Origin: an uncultured Gammaproteobacteria bacterium
Lineage (GTDB): Bacteria > Pseudomonadota > Gammaproteobacteria > Nitrosococcales > Methylophagaceae
DNA length: 39,609 bases
NCBI GenBank assembly: GCA_937900515.1
Contig: CALCCU010000017.1
Location: 1-39,609 of the forward strand
Direction of reading: 5' to 3'
The notes under the pieces were generated by a model. It saw only the letters and a list, made by a program, of their open reading frames with translations. It was not told the origin of the DNA and searched no databases. How positions within the stretch are numbered: the stretch's first letter is position 1; the number at the start of each line of letters is the position of its first letter. The position numbers were made by a program, and so were the translations under genes. This document shows positions 6,323-36,662 of the stretch, piece after piece.

Positions 6323-7057
6323 TCAGTTCAGAATTAATAATAGTAAAGCGAGTAATGCTGGTAACGCTTGAATAAATACAATACGTTTACTAACTGTTAT
6401 GCCACCAAAAATTCCAGCAATAGCGATACAGCTTAAAAAGAATAATAAAATAGCGGTTCCTTGGCTACTCATCATAAGCCCCCAAAGAAGCCCTGCAGCT
6501 AGAAAACCATTATACAAACCCATATTGGCTGCTAATACTTTTGACTGCTCTGCATAGGCCTCACTGAGCTTGAAGGTTTTTCTTCCCAGTGGTTTCGTCC
6601 ATAAAAACATCTCAAGCACTAAAAAGTAACTGTGTAATAAGGCGATGAACCCAATCAGAATATGAGCGATCGTGAGTTGAGTAGAGGCCATTTTCTTATC
6701 ATCATTTTGATAGCCATGAGGATAAGACCAGCCGTAGCCCCAACGAAATGCTGTCGGCCAGTAGGGGGAACCACCCACACGTACACCTGATAACATCAGT
6801 TCTGCAATGACAGGCTCACCTATTGCTGAGACACAGTTTTTTAAGGTCAAGTCAGCATCGAGTCGTTGTTGATAACTGCCGCCTTGCCAATAGGCTTTGT
6901 CATGCTCGGTGCAACATGATAACCATAAGTTTTGCTGTTGAGGTGTGCCATCAGGAAATGCACTACAACCGTCAGACTCGAATGGTTTAATTTGTTCTGC
7001 ATGAACAGGGTTCATCAGCAGTGTAAAAAACAGAGCAGTAATTATTAAGCGGATCAT
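6323..7057 (-). CDS. Fusion: secreted phospholipase A2-like domain plus DUF1304 membrane domain
   Basis: A signal peptide (residues 1-20, ending PVHA) is followed by a phospholipase A2-like domain. It has FESDGCSAFPDG, then CCTEHDKAYWQGG with a His52-Asp53 pair like the PLA2 catalytic histidine-calcium aspartate, and further cysteines. From about residue 123 (MASTQLTIAHILIG) the protein becomes a DUF1304-type integral membrane domain with about four helices and the family-like stretch LAANMGLYNGFLAAGLLWGL. Both parts are normally separate proteins. The internal methionine at the junction fits the DUF1304 start, suggesting the genes fused by loss of a stop codon. The ATG overlaps the upstream stop in TAATG, so translation is coupled. 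Lipase activity is unproven; the PLA2-like part would face the periplasm. Confidence 0.8.
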   Translation of the reverse strand: MIRLIITALFFTLLMNPVHAEQIKPFESDGCSAFPDGTPQQQNLWLSCCTEHDKAYWQGGSYQQRLDADLTLKNCVSAIGEPVIAELMLSGVRVGGSPYWPTAFRWGYGWSYPHGYQNDDKKMASTQLTIAHILIGFIALLHSYFLVLEMFLWTKPLGRKTFKLSEAYAEQSKVLAANMGLYNGFLAAGLLWGLMMSSQGTAILLFFLSCIAIAGIFGGITVSKRIVFIQALPALLALLLLILN

Positions 7058-19528: not shown

Positions 19529-20329
19529 ATGAAACTACATAGTATTTTGTTATCAGCATTATTTTTAGCTGCGATGTCTTTTAATGCATCATCAGCATCT
19601 ATTGATGGAGCCGTTACCTCATCAGAGTACCAGTGGAATACCGATGGTTCGGAAGGTTCTGATAAATGGATGTCTTTCAATAGTAGCGGCGCTTATCAAG
19701 AATATAATGATGCGAGCGGTGGTGATAGCTGGGATCTTAACTACTTAGGAACCAGTGTCAGCAATGGTCAATTTCAATTCGGAGTGATTGGTGGTGAAAT
19801 TCTTGATGGCCAAAAAACGGGTAGCTCATACAGCTCTGGCGCAGGCATTTATTTAAGTGATTTTGCTATTGGCGTCAATGCATCTGCTGATCCAAAACTA
19901 GATTCATCAGGTTTTCAATATGCTATCCGTCTATTAGATATTGTTGGAAGTGTTGCCAATTTTGCTTTACTAGAAGGTGGAACATGGGAAGGTGCCAATA
20001 TTTATGATGGTACTAGTCATGAGAATACACATAAAACTGATACCTATAAAATGGTTAATGCAACATCAACTAAAACATTCAGTGGTGTTTGGACAAATAA
20101 TGGTGGTGATGACAATGTATTGGAAGGTGGTTTCGACATTAAATGGCTAAGCCTATTTGATCCTAGCATTGGTGGAACATTAAGTACTTATATCACTATG
20201 GCATGTGTTAATGATGAAGCATTGGTTCATGCTGACGTCTCACCTGTTCCATTACCAGCCTCATTTTTCTTGATGGCACCAGTTTTAGCGGGTGTTTTAG
20301 GATTACGTCGACGCAAAATGCGAATCTAA
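19529..20329 (+). CDS. VPLPA-CTERM (PEP-CTERM type) exported protein
   Basis: A signal peptide (cleavage near NASSA) is followed by a mature domain rich in Gly, Ser, Asn and Asp with no enzymatic motif. It ends in a sorting tail: VPLPASFFLMAPVLAGVLGL, then RRRKMRI. The VPLPA motif, single hydrophobic helix and arginine cluster are the tripartite signal recognised by exosortases (XrtC/XrtD-type), which cleave and release or anchor surface proteins linked to exopolysaccharide. No exosortase or EPS gene is in the window, so the sorting enzyme is elsewhere. The gene stands alone between a CRP-type operator and a strong terminator, so it is a monocistronic, regulated exoprotein. Confidence 0.9.
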   Translation: MKLHSILLSALFLAAMSFNASSASIDGAVTSSEYQWNTDGSEGSDKWMSFNSSGAYQEYNDASGGDSWDLNYLGTSVSNGQFQFGVIGGEILDGQKTGSSYSSGAGIYLSDFAIGVNASADPKLDSSGFQYAIRLLDIVGSVANFALLEGGTWEGANIYDGTSHENTHKTDTYKMVNATSTKTFSGVWTNNGGDDNVLEGGFDIKWLSLFDPSIGGTLSTYITMACVNDEALVHADVSPVPLPASFFLMAPVLAGVLGLRRRKMRI

Positions 20330-25004: not shown

Positions 25005-25214
25005 ATGGAAAATGACGCGATGCAACAATTAGAACTTCAAATAGATGAGCTGCTTCGTGCCAGTCGCCGTCTTCGTGAAGAGAATATGTTATTGAAAGCG
25101 CAGCAGTCCACATGGATAAGTGAGCGAGCGAAATTAGTTGAGAAAACTGAAACCGCACGAACTCGTATTGAGAAAATGGTAAGCCGTTTAAAAGAATTGG
25201 ATAATGACTTATGA
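25005..25214 (+). CDS. Short coiled-coil protein next to ZapA (TIGR02449 family)
   Basis: A 69-residue, almost continuous heptad-repeat helix (QLELQIDELLRASRRLREEN, ending MVSRLKELDNDL). This fits the TIGR02449 family, a short ZapB-like coiled coil encoded directly before zapA in many gammaproteobacteria. A role in organising the FtsZ ring through ZapA is a reasonable inference and not proven. A second in-frame ATG at 25020 has GGAA at better spacing and may be the true start. The stop overlaps the zapA start in ATGA. Confidence 0.85.
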   Translation: MENDAMQQLELQIDELLRASRRLREENMLLKAQQSTWISERAKLVEKTETARTRIEKMVSRLKELDNDL

Positions 25215-25525
25215 GTTCAGCTCCTGTACCTGTTAACGTTAATATCCTAGGTAAGGAATATCAAGTAGCTTGCCCTGCAGAAGAAAAAGCTGCATTAGTA
25301 GCATCTGCCCAACTTCTTCACGATAATATGGAAAAGATCCGTTCATCTGGAAAAATTGTTGGACTAGACCGAATTGCTGTTATGGCCGCCCTTAATTTAG
25401 CGCATGAATTGATCAGTCTACAGAGCGAAGCTGGTAGTGGACTCGATGACATGAATGACAGTATTCTTAAGATTAAAGATAAAGTTAGCGTATTTTTAGA
25501 CGAAGTACGGCAGCTAGAATTATAA
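25211..25525 (+). CDS. zapA: Cell division protein ZapA
   Basis: Binds and bundles FtsZ at mid-cell. The N-terminal globular part has VNVNILGKEYQVACPAEEKA, and the helix DRIAVMAALNLAHELISLQS leads into the C-terminal coiled coil. At 104 residues it is the usual size. It is translationally coupled to the upstream coiled-coil gene and followed after about 40 bp by 6S RNA, the normal arrangement. Confidence 0.94.
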   Translation: MSSAPVPVNVNILGKEYQVACPAEEKAALVASAQLLHDNMEKIRSSGKIVGLDRIAVMAALNLAHELISLQSEAGSGLDDMNDSILKIKDKVSVFLDEVRQLEL

Positions 25526-25566: not shown

Positions 25567-25750
25567 CTGTTCCTGCGGTGTTCGATAGCGACAGTGTGTC
25601 TTGTGCCGATAAGCAAATGCTACGGAGATCGAAATTAGATTGGCGTGCAGGCTCGCGAGACGAGAAGCCCGATATTTAATTAAGATCGCCCCTTGAACCC
25701 CTCTGGTTCAAGAACCCCGTTCGTAACGGCACTGCGGGAGCTTTAATTCC
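25567..25750 (+). ncRNA. ssrS: 6S RNA (regulator of sigma-70 RNA polymerase)
   Basis: A long hairpin RNA of about 180 nt that mimics an open promoter and sequesters the housekeeping polymerase in stationary phase. The closing stem pairs CCTGCGGTG (25572-25580) with CACTGCGGG (25730-25738), allowing G-U pairs. The family-typical 3' half contains CCTTGAACC...GGTTCAAG (25691-25712), and GCCGATA-like and GAGAAGCCCGATATTT segments lie in the middle. Its position just after zapA is the conserved location. Exact ends are estimates. The processing sites and the pRNA template cannot be fixed by eye. Confidence 0.9.
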
Positions 25751-26173
25751 GAAATAGAACTAAATTTCTTAGAGAAAACTCAAGCAGTTTATCTTCTACA
25801 GTTTACTTAATACACGCTCCGTGCTTTCTGTTTTCAGCCTTAAATCCACGTAACAATTACTTCCCAAAACCTCAATCTAAGCAGCTCTGCTGTTGTATGT
25901 CCTAATGCTCGTGCATAAACAGGATTTGTTTGCATGACACTGACATGTACAGCTTTTATAATCATTTTGTAGCAAATTATAAAGGGCCGAGCCAACAAGT
26001 CTTGCTTTTTTCTGACGAGATTATTGTGTTTAACTAAGGCTAAATTAACAGCATTGCTTCAGGCTGAGTCGCCTTATCAAATTTGATGTACTATTTGAGC
26101 TATCTAAACAAAATATTATCTTGGTTTTGAAGCGTTTCACTTCAATAAAGCCATAAGTAGTTTTGGAGATGGA
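25751..26173. other. Gene-poor stretch after 6S RNA
   Basis: About 420 bp with no convincing gene. In many relatives ygfA (5-formyltetrahydrofolate cyclo-ligase) follows 6S RNA; it is absent here. A 41-codon minus-strand frame (25840-25965) is described separately. ATCAAATTTGAT (26076-26087) is a perfect 12 bp palindrome. TTGAAG and CTTCAA flank a 7-base loop near 26129-26147, ahead of the Lol-like operon. These could be operators for that operon, but nothing identifies a regulator. Confidence 0.5.
25840..25965 (-). other. Short frame of doubtful status, possible gene remnant (41 aa)
   Basis: An ATG-to-TAA frame without a ribosome-binding site. Its centre, NPVYARALGHTTAELLRLRF, with WEV after it, looks like real protein rather than noise. 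It is faintly reminiscent of a PAS-domain strand-helix, but is far too short to be a domain. It may be a decayed gene fragment or part of a dispersed repeat. Low confidence. Confidence 0.25.
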
Positions 26174-26182
26174 GTGTTTGAT

Positions 26183-26971
26183 ATGAATAACTTTTTACGG
26201 ACTAAAAGTAGCTACCGTGTACTTTTGTTTCTTCTGCTATCTATCTTTAGTCAATGGATCACGGCTGAGCCAATTGAGCAAGATTCTGAGCGAGTTCATG
26301 ACTTACTGAATGAAGTAGATGACTTATGGCGGGGAAAATCATCCTATGCTATCACCACTATGCAAGTTAAAACTGAGCACTATACGCGTAGTATGAAAAT
26401 GGAAGGCTGGTCGAAAGGCAAAGAGCAGACTTTGTTTAAGGTGGTTGAACCCCTCCGTGAAAAAGGTACCGTGACACTTAAGTCAGGCAATCATATTTAT
26501 ACCTATCTACCTAAAACTGATCGCACAATAAAACTAACCAGTGGCATGATGATGGGATCATGGATGGGCAGCCACCTCACCAATGATGACTTGGTCAAAG
26601 AAGCACGGTTAGAAGAAGATTATGATGCGAGCATTAGTTTTGAAGGTGAGCGTGATGGACAAAACATTATTGAATTTAGTTTAATTCCTAGGCTTGATGC
26701 TGCCGTTGTATGGGGTAAATTGGTTTTAATTGTGTTAGCTGATAGTCATATTCCGCTGGTGGAATATTATTATGATGAAGATATGTTATTGGCTCGTACC
26801 ATCAGTTTTAGCGATATAAAAATGATCGGTGATCGAGAGCGTCCAGCAGTATTACGAGTTGTTCCAGCAGATAAGCCTGATGAGTTCACCGAATTTACTT
26901 ACCTGCATCTTGAGTTTGATTTAGAGCTAAATGATCGTCTTTTTTCCTTATCTAGTTTGAAAAGACGATGA
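26183..26971 (+). CDS. LolA-like periplasmic carrier (outer membrane lipoprotein-sorting protein family)
   Basis: Signal peptide (cleavage near WITAEP). The mature part has the COG2834 pattern: EVDDLWRGKSSYAITTMQVK, TLFKVVEPLREKGTVTLKSG, IYTYLPKTDRTIKLTSGMMM, DDLVKEARLEEDYDASISFE, then strands ending in LFSLSSLKRR. This is the unclosed beta-barrel fold of LolA/LolB, suited to carry an acyl chain through the periplasm. It is not the canonical LolA gene, being longer (262 residues) and first in an ABC operon. The ATG at 26183 has GGAG 8 nt upstream; a GTG at 26174 with its own GGAG is an alternative. The stop overlaps the next start in ATGA. Confidence 0.88.
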   Translation: MNNFLRTKSSYRVLLFLLLSIFSQWITAEPIEQDSERVHDLLNEVDDLWRGKSSYAITTMQVKTEHYTRSMKMEGWSKGKEQTLFKVVEPLREKGTVTLKSGNHIYTYLPKTDRTIKLTSGMMMGSWMGSHLTNDDLVKEARLEEDYDASISFEGERDGQNIIEFSLIPRLDAAVVWGKLVLIVLADSHIPLVEYYYDEDMLLARTISFSDIKMIGDRERPAVLRVVPADKPDEFTEFTYLHLEFDLELNDRLFSLSSLKRR

Positions 26972-28191
26972 AAGTACTTCAACTTGCTAGCCGAAATGTG
27001 ATTCGAAGTAGTCATCGAACCATGGTGACAACGCTAGCGATGGCCTTTGCTTGCGCCATGATGATTGTATTTTCTAGTTTAATGGAAGGCTTCATTGTTG
27101 GTAGCGAACGTAATATTGTGTCGATGAATACTGGTGATATTCAAATTCATCAATTTGGTTATCGTGATGATCCTGATATTTATAAACAAATCGAGCAGTC
27201 GTCTGAATTAGTCGTTGCTATAAGGCAAGCTGGGCTTATGGCGAGTGAGCGATTATTTGCTTATGGTTTGATGGCGAGTGATAACAGCTCTTCTGGTGTG
27301 CAATTACGCGGAATTGACTTGGACTTTGAATCGACCGTTACTCAAATCAATCAGCATATTCAAACTGGCGACTGGTTGGATACAGCAGATCCTCATGGTG
27401 TGGTGATTGGCAAAAAATTAGCGCGTCTACTGGATGTCTCAATTGGTAGCGAACTGGTCTTTGTCGGTCAAACGGCTGATGGTTATATGGCTAATGATAG
27501 TTTTCATATCCGAGGTGTTTTGAAGTCGGTATCAGCTGAGATTGATAATAGCGGCGTCATTATGAGTAATACCATGTTACAAGACTTAATCAGCTTACCC
27601 GATGGCGCTCATGAAATTACCATCATACGATCAGATAGAAACACTGACTTAGACGCGGCTGTGCAAACAATCAACGCGTTAGTTGGGGATGATTTAGAGG
27701 TTTTAAACTGGCAACAGCTAATGCCTGTTATTAGCCAATTTTTAGAAACGGCACAGGTGCAATCATTAATCATGTTGTTATTCACTTATATTGCCGTGGC
27801 ATCAGTTGTACTTAATGCCATGTTAATGAGTGTATTTGAACGTATTCACGAGTTTGGCATTATGAAAGCGGTGGGCGTTCGGCCATGGCAATTAATCAGA
27901 ATTATTTATGCCGAAACATTTATTCAAACCCTATTAGCTAGCATTTTAGGACTGTTATTAGGAGTCAGTATTACTTGGTATTTTGTAAGGTATGGGCTTG
28001 ATTTATCTTCTTTATCTGAGGGGATTTCATTTGCAGGTTTAGCATTAGACCCCGTTTGGTATGCGGCATGGTCGTTCGAATCCTTGTTAAGTCCTATTTT
28101 GTTTTTGTTTGTGATGACGACTGTTGCTGTAATTTACCCTGCAATCAAAGCGGCGGTGATTCGTCCAGTCGATGCCATTCATCACCATTAG
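26968..28191 (+). CDS. LolC/E-type (FtsX-like) ABC permease, first paralogue
   Basis: An MacB/LolCDE-superfamily permease. One helix lies near residues 18-40, then a large periplasmic domain (about 45-255, with VQLRGIDLDFESTVTQI and GVVIGKKLARLLDVSIG), then three C-terminal helices. The conserved cytoplasmic loop MLMSVFERIHEFGIMKAVGV contacts the ATPase. It has 407 residues. It is coupled by ATGA to the LolA-like gene and followed after 9 bp by a paralogue, so the transporter is probably heterodimeric like LolCE. In Lol-type systems such permeases extract lipidated substrates from the outer leaflet of the inner membrane by a mechanotransmission mechanism. Confidence 0.9.
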   Translation: MKVLQLASRNVIRSSHRTMVTTLAMAFACAMMIVFSSLMEGFIVGSERNIVSMNTGDIQIHQFGYRDDPDIYKQIEQSSELVVAIRQAGLMASERLFAYGLMASDNSSSGVQLRGIDLDFESTVTQINQHIQTGDWLDTADPHGVVIGKKLARLLDVSIGSELVFVGQTADGYMANDSFHIRGVLKSVSAEIDNSGVIMSNTMLQDLISLPDGAHEITIIRSDRNTDLDAAVQTINALVGDDLEVLNWQQLMPVISQFLETAQVQSLIMLLFTYIAVASVVLNAMLMSVFERIHEFGIMKAVGVRPWQLIRIIYAETFIQTLLASILGLLLGVSITWYFVRYGLDLSSLSEGISFAGLALDPVWYAAWSFESLLSPILFLFVMTTVAVIYPAIKAAVIRPVDAIHHH

Positions 28192-28200
28192 GTTGTCGAA

Positions 28201-29439
28201 ATGAATTTAAATACTTTAGCTTGGCGAAATTTATGGCGACATAAACGGCGCACGTTGATTACGGCTTCATCGATTGCCTTTGGTGTGTTATTAGCTGTTA
28301 CATTCACTGGCGCAGGAGATTATTTTTACACTCGTATGATTGATGCTGGCGCCAATATGGGCATGGGGCATATTAGCATTATGGCACCCGATTATAACCG
28401 TGCACCGAGCAGTAAAAAAAGATTGCATCAAGCCGAAGCGTTAAAGCAGCGTGTTGAAGAGTTTGATGACGTACAAAGTGTCGCCATGCGAATTCAAGGT
28501 CAAGCTATGTTTGCCAGTGCTCGTAAAAGTATTGGTGGGATATTCTTTGCCATTGATCCACGACAAGAAAACAGTGATAACAATCTATTTGTAAAAGCGA
28601 TGGTGGAAGGGGATATGTTGCCCTCAGCATCCGGTAGCAGTGTTGTTCTAGGTACTGAACTTGCCAAAAAACTGAAACTAAAAATCGGTAAAAAAGTGGT
28701 TTATACGACAACTGATAAAAATGGTGACATTGTCAGTGCGATTGCCCGAGTAGGCGGCTTGTTCAAAACGGGTTCAGATGAGATAGATGGTTCGGTTGCA
28801 ATATTACCTCTACATAAGGTGCAAAAGGTATTGGGTTATCAACAAGATGAAGTCAGTGTATTAGCAGTGGTTTTATCTGACCAACGTTATAGCAATCAAT
28901 TAAGAGACAAGATGCAAGCCTTGCCACAGTTTGCAGATGTTGAAGTATTAAACTGGCAACAAACGCAACCTGATCTGGCTGGCATGATCGCGGTGGATAA
29001 AGGTTCTAATTACATCAGCCAATTATTAATTGCCCTGCTAGTGGCGGCTGGTATTTTAAATACCATGTTAATGAGCGTACTTGAACGTCGTCGTGAATTT
29101 GGTGTGATGATGGCGGTGGGAATGTCACCTAAAAATTTATTTTTATTAGTTATGTTGGAATCATTTTGGTTAGCAATATTAGGTTTAATCATTGGTGTTA
29201 TTGTGACTACTCCTTGGTTTTTGTTTATGTCTCAAACAGGCATTGATCTATCTGCTGCTTATGGCGATGGTTTTAGTTTTGGTGGAGTATTGCTTGATCC
29301 CACTTTCAAACTCCGTTTATTTAAGGAAAGCATTATTGCTATTTTAGTTGGCCTATTTGGCTTGGCTTTACTTTCAGGCGCTTATCCTGCTTGGCAGGCA
29401 GGTAGAGTCGCCCCTGTAGAAAGCTTAAAAACACTCTAA
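28201..29439 (+). CDS. LolC/E-type (FtsX-like) ABC permease, second paralogue
   Basis: Same architecture as its neighbour: an N-terminal helix after WRNLWRHKRRTLITASSIAF, a periplasmic domain, and three helices with the coupling loop MLMSVLERRREFGVMMAVGM. The two share a matching VLNWQQ block before the second helix, showing tandem duplication followed by divergence. It has 412 residues. Its periplasmic domain has a lysine-rich patch (AKKLKLKIGKKV) that the first lacks, so the two subunits may contact different partners, such as substrate and the LolA-like carrier. Part of the 26183-31365 operon. Confidence 0.9.
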   Translation: MNLNTLAWRNLWRHKRRTLITASSIAFGVLLAVTFTGAGDYFYTRMIDAGANMGMGHISIMAPDYNRAPSSKKRLHQAEALKQRVEEFDDVQSVAMRIQGQAMFASARKSIGGIFFAIDPRQENSDNNLFVKAMVEGDMLPSASGSSVVLGTELAKKLKLKIGKKVVYTTTDKNGDIVSAIARVGGLFKTGSDEIDGSVAILPLHKVQKVLGYQQDEVSVLAVVLSDQRYSNQLRDKMQALPQFADVEVLNWQQTQPDLAGMIAVDKGSNYISQLLIALLVAAGILNTMLMSVLERRREFGVMMAVGMSPKNLFLLVMLESFWLAILGLIIGVIVTTPWFLFMSQTGIDLSAAYGDGFSFGGVLLDPTFKLRLFKESIIAILVGLFGLALLSGAYPAWQAGRVAPVESLKTL

Positions 29440-29446
29440 TGAGACG

Positions 29447-30145
29447 ATGATTATGGAATCCGAGATTGTTCAATTAAGGAATGTCAGAAAAATCTATCAG
29501 CAAGGTGAAGTGCAGGTGAATGCCGTTGATGAGGTATCACTTAGCATCCATCAAGGTGACTTTGCAGCACTGTGTGGGCCTTCTGGTTCAGGTAAAACGA
29601 GTATTCTCAATCTGATTGGTGGTTTAGATACGGTAAGCTCAGGCCAAGTGAGGTTGGAAGGCGTAGATTTATCGACATTAAGTAATACGGCTTTATCAGA
29701 AGTACGAAAAAATAGAATTGGCTTTGTATTTCAATCTTATAACTTAATACCCGTGATGACAGCTTATGAAAATGCTGCGTTTGTATTGGATCTGCAAGGT
29801 GCCACTAAGACGGAATGTCATGAAAGGGTAATGAAAACTCTGGCTGATGTAGGCCTGCAAGGGCTGGAAAACCGACGCCCTGATGAAATGTCTGGCGGTC
29901 AACAACAACGTGTTGCGATTGCCCGAGCCATCGTGACGCATCCTGCAATCGTGTTAGCTGATGAACCTACGGCCAATGTTGATTCACATACGGCTGAATC
30001 GTTACTCGATTTAATGCAAACCTTAAATGAGCAACACGGCATTACCTTTTTATTTTCGACCCACGATCAGCGTGTGATTGATCGTGCGAAACGTATTATT
30101 CAAGTACAAGATGGTCAAATCGTGTCGGATGAGCATAAAGCCTAG
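29447..30145 (+). CDS. LolD/MacB-type ABC ATPase
   Basis: Cytosolic ATP-binding subunit for the two adjacent permeases. Walker A GPSGSGKT is at residues 44-51, the Q-loop FQSYNLIPVMTAYENA follows, the signature MSGGQQQRVAIARA is near 148-161, Walker B IVLADEPTANVD near 168-179, and the H-loop STHD after that. The EVQVNAVDEVSL opening and ELIPVMTAYENA-like region are typical of the LolD/MacB/FtsE group. It has 232 residues. A second ATG at 29453 has better spacing from GAG and may be the real start. It is 7 bp after the second permease and 2 bp before the beta-barrel gene. Confidence 0.93.
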   Translation: MIMESEIVQLRNVRKIYQQGEVQVNAVDEVSLSIHQGDFAALCGPSGSGKTSILNLIGGLDTVSSGQVRLEGVDLSTLSNTALSEVRKNRIGFVFQSYNLIPVMTAYENAAFVLDLQGATKTECHERVMKTLADVGLQGLENRRPDEMSGGQQQRVAIARAIVTHPAIVLADEPTANVDSHTAESLLDLMQTLNEQHGITFLFSTHDQRVIDRAKRIIQVQDGQIVSDEHKA

Positions 30146-30147
30146 CC

Positions 30148-31365
30148 GTGTTTAGAATCGTAATCATTTTCTTATTGACTCTGCCTTTAACGGCTCAGGC
30201 CTTTTATCAATGGCAAAGTGATGACAGCGCTCTTGAACTACGAGGTCTGTTACGTGGCACTGGCCTTGCCATTAATAATGCTAACGATGAACTGCTATTT
30301 GAAAAGGATAAGTTTCTAACAGCGGGTGGTTTTGGTCGTTTGATGATTGATGCTCAGACGACAGGAATGAGTATTGAAGCGCATGCCGTGCAAAGTGTGA
30401 TTGACTCAGAGTTACGTACTGGCGGAAGCCGTGTCAGTTCAGTAGTAGCCATTGATCGTAGTGATGCTATGCAGTGGAGCTTTGCTAATCAGCATGCTGA
30501 TTTAATGATTGATAGACTCAATGTGCAATTTAGCGGTGAACGATTCAATATCAAACTAGGCCGCCAAGCCATTAATTTAGCGGCTACATATTATTTTACC
30601 CCCAATGATTTTTATGCCCCATTTGCCGCTCAAACCTTTTATAGAACCTATAAACCCGGCGTTGATGCAGCTAGATTGGATTGGCTGTGGGGCGAGTTAT
30701 CACAATTATCGTTGTACACAGTGTTAACTTACCAAATTGATAATATTTATTCCGCTAAAAGACAAACCTCGCCTGACTGGAGTGACACATCTGTATTAGC
30801 CAGAGCATCCACTTTATTGGGTGATTTTGAATGGGCAGTATTATTAGGTAAAGAGCAAGGTGATAATATTATTGGCGTCGACTTTCAAGGCGAGCTGTTT
30901 GAGTGGCTTGGGGTGCGAGGTGAAGGACATCTAAGGTTTCCTGATGAATTAGACCAATCGAGAGATATTAAATTTTCATTAGGTTTAGAGCACCGGTTTG
31001 AAAATACCCTAACGATACGGATTGAACAGTTTTATCAACGTTCAGGTGCAGATAATGAGCAGCAATATTTGCTAAGTAGGCAAGCGATAAATACGAACAG
31101 TTATTATCTTGCTCAAAACTACACAGCATTGGGTGCTAGTTATGAAATTACGCCATTATTAAATAGTGATGCTGTGTGGATCTACAACCATCTTGATAGT
31201 TCAAACCTTTTAGCTTTATATGGGACTTATTCATTATCCGATGAATCAGAGTTATCAATGGGTTTGAACCTATCCGTAGGTGAACAGTCACATAATGGAA
31301 TGCTAAATAGTGAGTTTGGAAGCTATCCAAAGTCTGTGACCGTGGAATATAGAGTTTATTTTTGA
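30148..31365 (+). CDS. Outer-membrane beta-barrel protein of the ABC operon
   Basis: Signal peptide MFRIVIIFLLTLPLTAQA. The mature protein consists of repeated amphipathic strands (FNIKLGRQAINLAATYYF, LSLYTVLTYQIDNIYSAK, FSLGLEHRFENTLTIRIEQF). It ends SVTVEYRVYF with a terminal phenylalanine, the signal read by the BAM machinery. The length (405) suits a barrel of about 16-18 strands. It is not a recognised specific porin. It starts with GTG 2 bp after the ATPase stop and closes the operon, so it is likely the outer-membrane acceptor or exit for the Lol-like transporter. This last step is inference. Confidence 0.82.
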   Translation: MFRIVIIFLLTLPLTAQAFYQWQSDDSALELRGLLRGTGLAINNANDELLFEKDKFLTAGGFGRLMIDAQTTGMSIEAHAVQSVIDSELRTGGSRVSSVVAIDRSDAMQWSFANQHADLMIDRLNVQFSGERFNIKLGRQAINLAATYYFTPNDFYAPFAAQTFYRTYKPGVDAARLDWLWGELSQLSLYTVLTYQIDNIYSAKRQTSPDWSDTSVLARASTLLGDFEWAVLLGKEQGDNIIGVDFQGELFEWLGVRGEGHLRFPDELDQSRDIKFSLGLEHRFENTLTIRIEQFYQRSGADNEQQYLLSRQAINTNSYYLAQNYTALGASYEITPLLNSDAVWIYNHLDSSNLLALYGTYSLSDESELSMGLNLSVGEQSHNGMLNSEFGSYPKSVTVEYRVYF

Positions 31366-33472: not shown

Positions 33473-33548
33473 GTCATAGTAATAGTGCTAACTTGCTAAC
33501 AAAATCAATCTATAATGAGTGATGGATTTGTGTTGTCGAGGAAGTTGT

Positions 33549-36500
33549 ATGGTTAAGTTAATTAAGGTTGTCGCTGGAATAGTATTACTTGTCGTTGTTG
33601 CAGTAATTATTTTCTTAGCAACGCTTGATCTTAATCGGCATAAAGAGAAAATCACCCAAATTATTGAAGATGCCACTGGGCGTCAGTTACGTATTAATGG
33701 TGATTTACATTTAGCCTTATCTCTAACTCCGACACTTGTGATGGAAAATGCAAGCTTAAGTAATGCTAGCTGGGGTGCTCAGCCTGAGATGGTCAGCCTA
33801 GATAAATTTGAGGTTGAAGTTGAATTAAGACCATTTCTTTCAGGTGATATTCAAGTTAACCGAATTATCCTTCTGACTCCTACAATCTTACTGGAAACAA
33901 ATGAACAGGGGGTGGGTAACTGGGTATTTGCATCTAATGACGGTACAGAAGATAAACCCGCGGATAAAAAAGATTTACCCAGCCTTCTTTTTAGTGAAAT
34001 ATTAATCAAAGATGCTGTTATCAATTATAAAGATGGTGTCACAGGTGAAGCATACAAAGTCGCTATTGATGAATTGACCGAGCAAACTGCTAATGCTGAT
34101 GCACCATTAATATTGGCGTTGAAATTGATTTATGAAGGTATACCGGTTTCTCTGAATGGCGAGTTTGGTTCTCTTAATCAACTATTTGCTGATAAACCAT
34201 ATCCTATCAATTTGGATGTTCTGACTAATCAGACTAAATTAAGCATTAATGGGCAAATTACCAAACCTATGGCAGGCAGAGGGTTTAATTTAGCCACTCA
34301 ATTTGATGCTGAGTCATTAGATGATATTGCCCAGTTGATAGGAAGCGAGTTACCTGAACTTCAAGCAATAAATCTATCGGCTACATTGACTGATAACAAT
34401 GATATGTATTGGATTAAGACATTGAAATTTAATGTCGGTGACATGGCGCTCTCTGGTGATATTTCAGCAAAACTAAGTGGAAAAACACCTGCTATAGACC
34501 TCAAGTTATACTCAAATAAGCTTGATTTAACCCAATTTATCCCTGAAAGCACCGAACAAGTAGAAATTGAATTAGCTCCTGAATCAGAAGAGCAAGCAAA
34601 GGTTACAGCGACGGAACAAATGGAGCAGCCTCAGGAAAGTTTGAGCATTCCAGCCTTACCTTTTGATGAAATTAAACAGCGATTGTTACTGGTTGATGCC
34701 AATGTTGATGTCTCAGTCAAAGAGTTAATAACGTATGGTGCTACATTCGCTGATACTTCAGTGATGGCTACTTTAAAGACGGGTAACCTATCGGTGAAGC
34801 CTTCAACGACTATTGTTGAACAGGGTCAACTCTCGGCTGATATTACTTTTAATAGTGATAAGTCTGAAGCGAATGCAGTTCTTAATGCTGAGCTTGATTC
34901 CATCGCTAAATTATCTACATTGCTAGGCACTACATTGCCCGAGCTCGGTAAGCTTAAAGTTACTGCTGAAGTGATTGCCGATAAGCAGCACTATGCCGTT
35001 AATAATATGAACTTAAATATTGGAAGTAGTGATTTATCTGGTGAGTTTGCTGCACAAATTGGTGGGCAACGACCAGTCGTGACGGCACTACTGACTTCGA
35101 ATATGATCGATGTTAATCAGCTGATGATTAATCCTAGTGAGAAAGAGCTGAGCACCGGTACAGCCAAGTCAGCTGAAAGTTCTTCTGAAGGTTTTTCATT
35201 AGAAGAGTTAAAAAAGAAACTATTATTACTTGATGGTAATGTGTCTTTAAGTGCAAAAGAAATCAAGACTGGCAGTTCTACACTCACCGATACTAATATT
35301 AAAGTTTATCTTCAAAGTGGTGACTTAAAAGTCGAACAGCTCGATGGCACTATTGATGGAGGGCAGGTTAAGGCGGGGCTGACATTTATTTCATCGGCTA
35401 CGCGCCCAAAGCTCGATATTAGGCTGGGTGTTGATTCCTTAGCTAAATTATCAAAAATAGCTGGAACTGACTTACCTGCTCTTAGTCCAGTGAAACTGAC
35501 TGGTAATATTAACTTTGATAAAGGTAATTACTTAATTGACTCACTAATTTTACAGGCAGGTAAAACTGATCTTTCAGGTAGTGCATCGATTAATATGGCC
35601 AATAAAGTACCGAGTATTAAAGCAACGCTAAGTGCTAACTTAATCGATTTAACAATGTTTGAAAGTAAAGAGAAAGTTAAGTCGGATAAGAAAAAAACGA
35701 AGAATGAACGCATATTTTCAGAAGAACCATTAGATTTACAAGCATTAAGGTCCTTTAACGCCGATGTTTCTCTAAAAGCACAGAAAATTAAAACGAGTAG
35801 TTTAGATATTGCTAAAACAAATATTTCGGTCTCTTTAAATGGCGGTAAATTATTAGTTAAGCCGCTTCAAAGCTTTTTGGCTGGTGGAGAGTTAAGCGGA
35901 ACAGTTGGCTTAAATGCCGCAAAAGAAGTAGCTGTATTATCAAGTGATTTAACAATGAAAGGCTTGCAGCCCAACCAACTGGCTGAGTTAACGGATACGT
36001 TAACAGGTGCAAAAACAGATATAGATATTAATTTATCGGGGCAGGGTAAAAGCGTTAGTCAGATTATGGCTGGTTTGAATGGTCAATTTACAGTCAAAGT
36101 AGAAGATGGTGTTCTGGTAGATTCAGTAATGGGTGCATTGGGTGCTGATGTATTGGCTAAATTAGCAGGCATGTTAAATCCATTTTCTAAGCGAGAGAGC
36201 AACACGGCCTTAAAATGTGCTGTTGTGAATTTTACTATCAAAGATGGCATCGCAACTGCTAAAAATGGAATTGCTATATCGATGGATAAATTAAATATTT
36301 TGGGTGATGGCGATATTAATCTAAAAAATGAAAAGTTAGATATTAGTCTTAAAGCAGAGCCTAAAGAGGGCTTAGGAATTAGTGCAAGTAAGTTTGTATC
36401 TTTGGTTAAATTAGCAGGTACGTTAGCTAACCCTTCGCCTAGTGCTGACCTAGGAGGTGCTTTGTCTACAGGTGCATCAGTCGGTACAGCAGTTGCAACG

Positions 36501-36662
36501 GGTGGGTTATCACTATTAGCAGAAGGCTTATTAGATCGTGTAACGGCAGATGTTGATCCTTGCGCCACTGCATTAGGAATTAGACCAAGTAAGCGAAATA
36601 AACCAGCTGAATTGCCTGCAGCAACGCCATCAATTGATGCTGTTGAAGTTGGCGGGGAGTAG
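33549..36662 (+). CDS. AsmA-family protein with internal repeats
   Basis: One N-terminal helix (VVAGIVLLVVVAVIIFLATL) anchors a long periplasmic protein. It begins with the AsmA motif ATGRQLRINGDLHLALSLTP, then VMENASLSNASWG. Near the C-terminus is the AsmA_2-like region TDIDINLSGQGKSVSQIMAG, then LNGQFTVKVEDGVL, and LDISLKAEPKEGLG. AsmA-like proteins are thought to bridge or regulate lipid flow between the membranes. At 1037 residues it is well above the 617 of E. coli AsmA because a module of about 179 residues is repeated. The ATG at 33549 is preferred since GAGGAAG precedes it. Monocistronic; ends with a small hairpin. Confidence 0.9.
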   Translation: MVKLIKVVAGIVLLVVVAVIIFLATLDLNRHKEKITQIIEDATGRQLRINGDLHLALSLTPTLVMENASLSNASWGAQPEMVSLDKFEVEVELRPFLSGDIQVNRIILLTPTILLETNEQGVGNWVFASNDGTEDKPADKKDLPSLLFSEILIKDAVINYKDGVTGEAYKVAIDELTEQTANADAPLILALKLIYEGIPVSLNGEFGSLNQLFADKPYPINLDVLTNQTKLSINGQITKPMAGRGFNLATQFDAESLDDIAQLIGSELPELQAINLSATLTDNNDMYWIKTLKFNVGDMALSGDISAKLSGKTPAIDLKLYSNKLDLTQFIPESTEQVEIELAPESEEQAKVTATEQMEQPQESLSIPALPFDEIKQRLLLVDANVDVSVKELITYGATFADTSVMATLKTGNLSVKPSTTIVEQGQLSADITFNSDKSEANAVLNAELDSIAKLSTLLGTTLPELGKLKVTAEVIADKQHYAVNNMNLNIGSSDLSGEFAAQIGGQRPVVTALLTSNMIDVNQLMINPSEKELSTGTAKSAESSSEGFSLEELKKKLLLLDGNVSLSAKEIKTGSSTLTDTNIKVYLQSGDLKVEQLDGTIDGGQVKAGLTFISSATRPKLDIRLGVDSLAKLSKIAGTDLPALSPVKLTGNINFDKGNYLIDSLILQAGKTDLSGSASINMANKVPSIKATLSANLIDLTMFESKEKVKSDKKKTKNERIFSEEPLDLQALRSFNADVSLKAQKIKTSSLDIAKTNISVSLNGGKLLVKPLQSFLAGGELSGTVGLNAAKEVAVLSSDLTMKGLQPNQLAELTDTLTGAKTDIDINLSGQGKSVSQIMAGLNGQFTVKVEDGVLVDSVMGALGADVLAKLAGMLNPFSKRESNTALKCAVVNFTIKDGIATAKNGIAISMDKLNILGDGDINLKNEKLDISLKAEPKEGLGISASKFVSLVKLAGTLANPSPSADLGGALSTGASVGTAVATGGLSLLAEGLLDRVTADVDPCATALGIRPSKRNKPAELPAATPSIDAVEVGGE
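34662..35910 (+). repeat. Three-fold internal repeat in the AsmA-family gene
   Basis: Modules start near 34662 (FDEIKQRLLLVDANVDVSVK), 35199 (LEELKKKLLLLDGNVSLSAK) and 35737 (LQALRSFNADVSLKAQ). The steps are 537 and 538 bp. Each continues with a threonine/asparagine-rich strand and a G-DLKV/GNLSV/GKLLV turn. The protein sequences are diverged, so duplication is old. Confidence 0.75.

Follow-up and report, generated by a model that had tools for sequence, protein, structure and literature searches.

In Castellaniella, AmeABCD is a resistance-nodulation-division (RND) system with DUF1329 and DUF1302 proteins, and it has been proposed to export apolar monoterpenes (PMC6394551). The genes BBJ23-BBJ29 of Borrelia are described as encoding a MacB-like ATP-binding cassette (ABC) transporter together with a LolA-like protein and an Omp85 barrel, the ligand of which is unknown (PMC13078400). 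In Thalassolituus, one MMPL plus LolA-like-domain protein and the next gene, that of a porin, are reported to rise on long-chain alkane (PMC6304351), and in P. gingivalis and P. intermedia, operons of the TetR-MMPL-LolA-like type are reported to belong to the most strongly induced genes when hemin or iron is short (PMC10470040, PMC10434189), a response that may be a lead to the cargo of the RND type. Among the type VII ABC transporters, YbbAP and LolCDE are members for which extraction of hydrophobic molecules or lipoproteins is described, and the type VII systems of E. coli are described as extracting molecules or acting on the periplasmic side (PMC12654888). The subject here is an operon of five genes at positions 26183-31365 of contig CALCCU010000017.1 (assembly GCA_937900515.1) from an uncultured gammaproteobacterium of the Methylophagaceae; the whole stretch of 39,609 nucleotides that was analysed is called the window. 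The operon is widespread and corresponds to the RND carrier-barrel modules, with an ABC transporter as its engine; as such it is undescribed in the literature searched, which was the openly licensed PMC literature, with subscription journals and preprints mostly outside it, and among the matches listed there is no paper that names an operon of ABC genes, a PF17131 carrier and an 18-strand barrel. It is probably a dedicated trans-envelope export route that is driven by a type VII ABC transporter and has its own carrier and its own barrel.

The sequence-only reading had described a LolA-like carrier, two permeases, an ATPase and a barrel ending in Phe at this place, and the open reading frames, Pfam and, for the barrel, the predicted fold confirm it, with a four-base ATGA overlap between the first two genes and 9, 7 and 2 bases between the following ones. 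For gene A, the ATG at 26183 agrees with a ribosome-binding sequence (by eye). The features of the operon are as follows.

26183-26971 (ATG) or from 26174 (GTG), + strand: gene A, predicted LolA-like carrier (list of open reading frames, Pfam)
26968..28191, + strand: gene B, predicted type VII ABC permease 1 (MacB_PCD and FtsX, Pfam)
28201..29439, + strand: gene C, predicted type VII ABC permease 2 (MacB_PCD and FtsX, Pfam)
29447..30145, + strand: gene D, ABC ATPase of the LolD/MacB/FtsE group (ABC_tran, E 6.3e-34)
30148..31365, + strand: gene E, predicted outer-membrane barrel with 18 wall strands (predicted fold; no Pfam or NCBIfam name)
30568..30660, + strand: barrel loop of residues 141-171, after strand 5 (family conservation, aromatic-rich)

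In the proposed route, the permease pair B/C, powered by a dimer of D, would pull a lipophilic molecule from the inner membrane, the soluble carrier A would receive it in its hydrophobic half-barrel and traverse the periplasm, and A would then dock at the periplasmic mouth of barrel E, from which the cargo would reach the surface or the outer leaflet. The barrel would thereby take the place of LolB. The analysis itself gives the gene content, the conserved order, the co-inheritance of barrel and ABC genes, the predicted folds of A and E and the kinship of the barrel to its counterparts in RND/MMPL modules; the direction of export, the contact of A with E and the other contacts, and the lipophilic nature of the cargo are inferred.

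The five genes form a conserved autonomous unit. A sequence search with the barrel gave matches in 19 of 59 genomes, and 17 of these 19 belong to the window's genus (its own genome and damaged copies included), which was represented by 29 genomes; a barrel search of genome contigs gave 12 loci, among them loci of Mariprofundus, Nitrospirota, a Deltaproteobacteria bin and Nitrospinaceae. A 24-row barrel profile matched 36 of 369 genomes of the class, and a 47-row profile had matches in 83 genomes among the 398 of the phylum; the weakest matches are doubtful, and most of the strong ones lie in family f208, which is taken for the Mariprofundaceae because locus L115 (f208) and locus L025 (Mariprofundaceae bacterium) are the same contig. 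The neighbourhoods of barrel matches were taken irrespective of ABC genes. A, B/C and D were found on the same strand at most 6.5 kb upstream of the barrel in 54 of 68 scored loci (52 distinct), and the complete set is present in 49 of the 56 distinct barrel loci that have at least 4.5 kb upstream. The order of the genes, which the sequence-only reading had considered might be unique to one strain, is thus not strain-specific. Outside the latter count are the loci with less than 4.5 kb upstream, both incomplete (L031, L071, L073, L074, L081, L098) and complete (L023, L079, L109); L097, which has no barrel open reading frame of 80 amino acids, is outside the count as well, L022/L099 and L025/L115 are the same contigs and each pair was counted once, and L119 was omitted from the scoring of 68 loci (barrel profile 26 bits, no ABC neighbours). 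The profiles for A to D were built partly from scored loci, which favours detection but not adjacency.

The full set is found in Gamma- and Zetaproteobacteria, Nitrospirota and one Deltaproteobacteria bin, and also on one Bacteroidota plasmid; recurring in this way in further genera, classes and phyla, it is not a chance arrangement. A search of plasmids with the barrel gave two records, neither covering 80% of it; on the plasmid of Persicobacter (Bacteroidota; L169:3089-8795), a TetR gene is followed by the complete set in the order A-B-C-D-E. This order is found in most loci. Six loci (L075-L079, L104) have the order A-D-BC-E with a fused permease of about 835 amino acids, and five others (L117, L118, L159, L162, L165) have the order D-BC-A-E with one permease, likewise L161 as far as its short contig reaches. 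In L147 and L151, the PF17131 carrier gene is read in the opposite direction to the ABC genes around it. Genes for an ArsP_1-like permease and a class I methyltransferase stand between permease C and the ATPase in L033:3328-4594, and similar genes (by similarity only) lie upstream of ATPase and barrel in L032:3603-5626, where A to C were not found.

Pairwise distances correlate for all ten gene pairs in the 39 loci with five separate genes (Mantel r 0.84-0.95, with none of 999 permutations as high). Because vertical descent alone could give such a correlation, the tree of the barrel was compared with the concatenated tree of A to D. Both trees, which are quick searches, share the main groups that cross classes and phyla: the window's genus is grouped with Mariprofundaceae rows, L070 and L072 (Gammaproteobacteria) with L114 (f208), and L082 (Gammaproteobacteria) with f208 rows, while L029 (Nitrospirota) and L030 (the Deltaproteobacteria bin) lie inside the window's larger group. 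The starred branches force at least five and at least seven changes of the label Gamma in the two trees. Within groups the details differ, e.g. in the positions of L025, L029 and L065. These shared groups indicate that the barrel and the ABC genes move jointly between classes and phyla.

The analogy to RND/DUF1329/DUF1302 operons that the sequence-only reading had drawn turns out to be stronger than proposed, as the barrels themselves are homologous by profile comparison and an RND version is present in the window's own genome (L001, contig C113), where an RND pump, a PF17131 carrier and a barrel of 400 amino acids follow each other. Pfam gives no match for that barrel at 1e-4; the carrier beside it matches DUF1329 as well. 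When every second match to PF17131 of ranks 1-91 was taken (46, of which 7 had already been collected, the window included) together with one extra locus, the engines near these 47 loci, read by hand, were RND in 24 cases and ABC in 14 (in L161 only a permease on the contig), with neither seen in 9, and a barrel of the RND type is present in 20 of the 24 RND-associated loci. In hhalign, the RND-linked barrels (17 rows) match the E family (47 rows) with a probability of 97.9 and an E-value of 4.1e-13 over 259 columns; a repeat gave 2.7e-10, reversed and column-shuffled controls 0.083-0.66, and rotated versions, since rotation leaves long blocks intact, still gave 2.5e-9 to 5.7e-7. By these profiles, the window's barrel is homologous to the barrels of RND/MMPL and LolA-like modules. 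DUF1302 (PF06980) itself has no match in the window's barrel; it matches 7 of the 47 members of the alignment, the best with an E-value of 5.5e-6 (matches with E at most 0.01 were listed, without cut-off). On a plasmid of Haliovirga abyssi (L168:3362-8819), genes for TetR, MMPL, a LolA-like protein and an EFR1 ferredoxin are followed by a barrel gene that scores 132 bits with the E family; a second MMPL/LolA-like/DUF1302 set lies near the first. As the barrel families are homologous and have RND/MMPL-associated relatives, in the window's own genome and in Haliovirga, the best reading is that one carrier/barrel half is served by exchangeable engines.

The RND relatives also give some weight to an explanation as a detoxification pump, which would clear hydrophobic toxic compounds (hydrocarbons, terpenes, porphyrins, antimicrobials) from the inner membrane and would have no fixed physiological cargo. 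AmeABCD has been proposed to export monoterpenes, the operon has passed between phyla in one piece, and TetR regulators are encoded beside eight RND modules and beside a carrier-barrel pair, L128 (nine cases, each chosen because a gene of fitting size was present), and also beside the ABC unit of Persicobacter. TetR is not recurrent beside the ABC operons, however, as the 74 flanking genes scanned include no more than one member at 1e-5, and the many matches in f208 point to a steady function in that family, although they come from a number of f208 genomes that is not given. A detoxification pump seems unlikely.

Gene A matches LolA_like (PF17131) with an E-value of 7.9e-39 and 133.7 bits (cut-off 30), and its AlphaFold2 model, with a mean predicted local distance difference test (pLDDT) of 90.5, has the half-barrel fold of the LolA superfamily. 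The best PDB matches of this model are 3bk5, 4z48 (DUF1329), 3buu and 9tp6 (LolA3 of P. gingivalis), with template-modelling scores on the query of 0.71-0.78, against 0.35-0.45 for the classical LolA structures (best 50 rows). The protein has a signal peptide (by eye) and no lipobox. Lipobox-like motifs are absent in 37 of 39 A proteins and present in two, and are present in one of 39 E proteins, those of the window being without; the carriers of L072 and L109 were omitted from the carrier alignment. From the model, gene A appears to encode a soluble periplasmic carrier nearest to LolA3 and DUF1329. LolA3 is described as having a hydrophobic groove, as lacking the marks of both LolA and LolB, and as binding LolB very weakly (PMC13103446), and in F. 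johnsoniae the loss by deletion of a protein that bears the name LolA3 is reported to be without phenotype (PMC11885536).

Both permeases exceed the Pfam cut-offs for MacB_PCD and FtsX and the ATPase is encoded separately, so that B, C and D belong, judged by their domains, to the type VII (MacB-like, mechanotransmission) ABC transporters. The NCBIfam model LolCE scores 111 bits on permease B and 127.6 bits on permease C, not reaching its cut-off of 362, and LolD scores 223 bits on the ATPase, not reaching 308; these are nonetheless the best NCBIfam models for the three proteins. A canonical Lol system is encoded elsewhere in the same genome (LolCE 524 bits, cut-off 362; LolB 126, LolA 157), and in the permease tree a starred branch parts the B and C proteins from LolC and LolE of E. 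coli and the LolCE of the host. In LolC, the Hook (residues 167-179) is essential and recruits LolA (PMC10865981). Aligned to residues 163-184 of LolC, the Hook segment has 22 residues in E. coli LolC and 21 in LolE and the host's LolCE, and by this sequence alignment it is shortened to 16 residues in all 39 B proteins and in 36 of 39 C proteins, both permeases of the window among them, with 17 in the other three. Hook length alone is no proof, because LolE also has 21 residues and yet its domain is reported not to have bound LolA (PMC10865981). On the missed LolCE and LolD cut-offs and the shortened Hook, identity with the canonical Lol system was rejected.

A second, dedicated Lol pathway is another matter: here the permeases would extract a special subset of lipoproteins, A would carry them, and the barrel would insert them or flip them to the surface. 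That LolCE and LolD are the best-scoring NCBIfam models and that the carrier has the fold of the LolA superfamily would agree with it, but the same curated cut-offs are missed, the Hook is shortened, and LolA3 barely binds LolB. Residues Tyr248 and Tyr250, with which LolE is described to clamp the lipoprotein peptide (PMC12846838), are not kept: neither position has Tyr among its six commonest residues in B or C, and position 250 is most often Glu (21 of 39 B, 23 of 39 C). The two tyrosines are, however, also missing from LolC of E. coli and from the LolCE of the host. No LolB-type outer-membrane lipoprotein receptor was found in the operon, the lipobox scan being negative for A and E of the window, and no recurring lipoprotein gene was found in the neighbourhood. 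A lipoprotein pathway of this kind is thus quite unlikely.

The barrel has no Pfam family over cut-off (best DUF2490, E 0.014). It has a signal peptide (by eye), and its C-terminal Phe, already seen in the sequence-only reading, now stands at the end of an AlphaFold2 model with 18 wall strands (own count), a mean pLDDT of 90.7 and a predicted template-modelling score of 0.86. Its nearest folds are those of the OprD/Occ family and AlgE, with Z-scores of about 23 at 8-14% identity, rows within 1 Z being tied; with OccK9, Z is 23.7 (root-mean-square deviation 3.1, 307 residues aligned, 9% identity), and with AlgE 23.3 (3.3, 300, 13%). No credible sequence relatives were found among the PDB sequences, in which a profile search gave no barrel; what the structural likeness shows is a shared fold. 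Among the long loops of the family, that of residues 141-171 is conserved best (consensus pINLAtTfYFTPNDFFAPFAAQtFyRtYKPG), with a mean information of 2.86 bits; strand residues that face inward have 2.32 and those that face outward 1.93, the two kinds having been assigned from hydropathy parity and not from coordinates, and with 29% aromatic consensus residues vs 13% overall.

Many of the nearest folds being OprD/Occ channels, which serve in uptake, the operon could also be a route of import or recycling, with the barrel admitting a lipophilic molecule, A carrying it inwards and the ABC transporter using or sensing it. The TetR-MMPL-LolA-like operons are induced by shortage of iron or hemin, as uptake systems often are (PMC10470040, PMC10434189), but this induction belongs to the RND type and not to the ABC operon, the type VII systems of E. 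coli extract molecules or act periplasmically as far as described (PMC12654888), and the operon is without the substrate-binding protein of an uptake system. Import or recycling is accordingly very improbable. That E is an ordinary porin lying by chance behind an unrelated ABC operon is hardly credible and was rejected, for although the fold is common to 18-strand and other porins and L026 and L112 carry the barrel without ABC genes nearby, the linkage in 49 of 56 loci, the agreement of the trees with co-inheritance across phyla, and the homologous barrels linked to PF17131 carriers with RND engines show that it is not a general porin that occurs independently of these genes, a possibility which the sequence-only reading had raised.

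The cargo is a guess, because the neighbourhoods of the operon have no widely recurring gene for a cargo or its biosynthesis; most likely, with a little better than an even chance, it is a lipophilic small molecule or an unusual lipid, whereas lipoproteins are quite unlikely and the rest is left open. As the sequence-only reading had stated, none of the five genes encodes a lipoprotein. Flanking open reading frames of 42 loci fall into clusters that span at most five loci, and a Pfam scan of 74 neighbour genes gave at most three members per family, so that no widely recurring flanking gene was found and a cargo gene encoded in the neighbourhood was rejected. One cluster of four loci (L026, L081, L086, L087; three from one family) is phosphoglucose isomerase by reading the sequence.

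Several points weigh against the dedicated export route. Neither the clustering at 42 loci nor the scan of 74 genes gave a gene to name its cargo. The nearest folds of the barrel, OprD/Occ and AlgE, are channels for polar solutes, and conserved charges among the inward strand residues (R64, R123, R257, E259, E293, E333, R402) argue against a simply greasy pore. The shortened Hook leaves unexplained how A would meet the permeases. The kinship with the RND-linked barrels is visible only between profiles, the single RND-linked barrel of the window's own genome giving no significant match to the E profile, and the Mantel correlation is also what plain vertical descent would be expected to give. 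Seven of the 56 loci are without the full set (L026, L032, L095, L096, L103, L108, L112), L096 and L103 looking decayed, and in Mariprofundus (L026:2866-6444) the barrel open reading frame overlaps one of two PD40 beta-propeller genes, with no ABC gene on the 9-kb contig.

Around the operon, the following features were found. The candidate promoter is a consensus match only, and promoter-like sites are not enriched in the region (6 observed vs a shuffled mean of 16.9).

25211-25525: zapA-like open reading frame, 5' of the 6S RNA gene (identity by reading the sequence)
25567-25744, + strand: 6S RNA gene, 5' of the operon (RF00013, 87.2 bits)
25934..25962, + strand: candidate promoter ATGACA-17-TATAAT (11 of 12 positions)
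from 31605: YdjM-family gene, 3' of the operon (Pfam)

About 2 kb 3' of the operon lies an AsmA-family gene (33519-36662, + strand; PF05170, 7.8e-56), another candidate for envelope lipid transport. Further away, an open reading frame at 6323-7057 (- strand) has a DUF1304 membrane domain as its sole Pfam match, preceded by an N-terminal stretch in which a CCTEHD motif resembles that of phospholipase A2 (by eye), and one at 19529-20329 (+ strand) encodes a secreted protein with a PEP-CTERM/VPLPA-like C-terminus (by eye) and no Pfam match at 1e-5.

If the export route holds, many genes annotated as 'outer membrane lipoprotein-sorting protein', 'ABC transporter permease' or 'hypothetical protein' would belong to one export architecture with two types of engine in several phyla, a function would be suggested for LolA3-type carriers, the role of which is open in the available accounts (PMC13103446, PMC11885536), and there would be an accessible way to study the passage of lipophilic molecules to the Gram-negative cell surface. 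As Mariprofundus and relatives carry the operon, the cargo could, speculatively, also bear on the surface chemistry of iron oxidisers. More tentatively, with slightly less than an even chance, there may be a general class of bacterial exporters whose common outer half consists of a LolA3-type carrier together with a barrel from a single superfamily, and whose engine in the inner membrane is exchangeable, being either a type VII ABC transporter (with two, fused or single permeases) or an RND/MMPL pump. In such machines a soluble shuttle would cross the periplasm, unlike in the TolC conduit or the Lpt bridge, and their carriers would include the orphan LolA3 proteins for which no lipoprotein-sorting phenotype is known.

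Of the described systems, the Borrelia genes BBJ23-BBJ29 differ from the operon by an Omp85-type barrel, by one permease (a proposed homodimer) and by their number of seven, and in the available account they are reported only in Borrelia (PMC13078400). YbbAP-TesA is likewise a type VII ABC system with proposed extraction of hydrophobic compounds, and the fused permease of about 835 amino acids recalls YbbP with its internal repeat, but YbbAP acts with a lipid hydrolase, and carrier and barrel are absent in the account available (PMC12654888). With LolABCDE the operon shares the type VII ABC transporter, two permease genes and one ATPase gene, a carrier of the LolA fold and presumably the extraction from the inner membrane; unlike LolABCDE, it has its own barrel instead of LolB, LolCE and LolD scores below cut-off, a shortened Hook and a LolA3/DUF1329-like carrier. 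MacAB-TolC has the same MacB-type permease domains (MacB_PCD and FtsX), whereas the operon has neither a MacA adaptor nor TolC, its permease and ATPase genes are separate, and its carrier is of the shuttle type in place of a continuous conduit. The AmeABCD-like modules of RND/MMPL, PF17131/DUF1329 and barrel have an RND engine and not an ABC transporter, AmeABCD has two periplasmic proteins, and AmeA itself lies outside the barrel comparison, but the modules share with the operon the superfamily of the carrier, the autonomy of the module and, for the RND-linked barrels sampled, the homology of the barrel.

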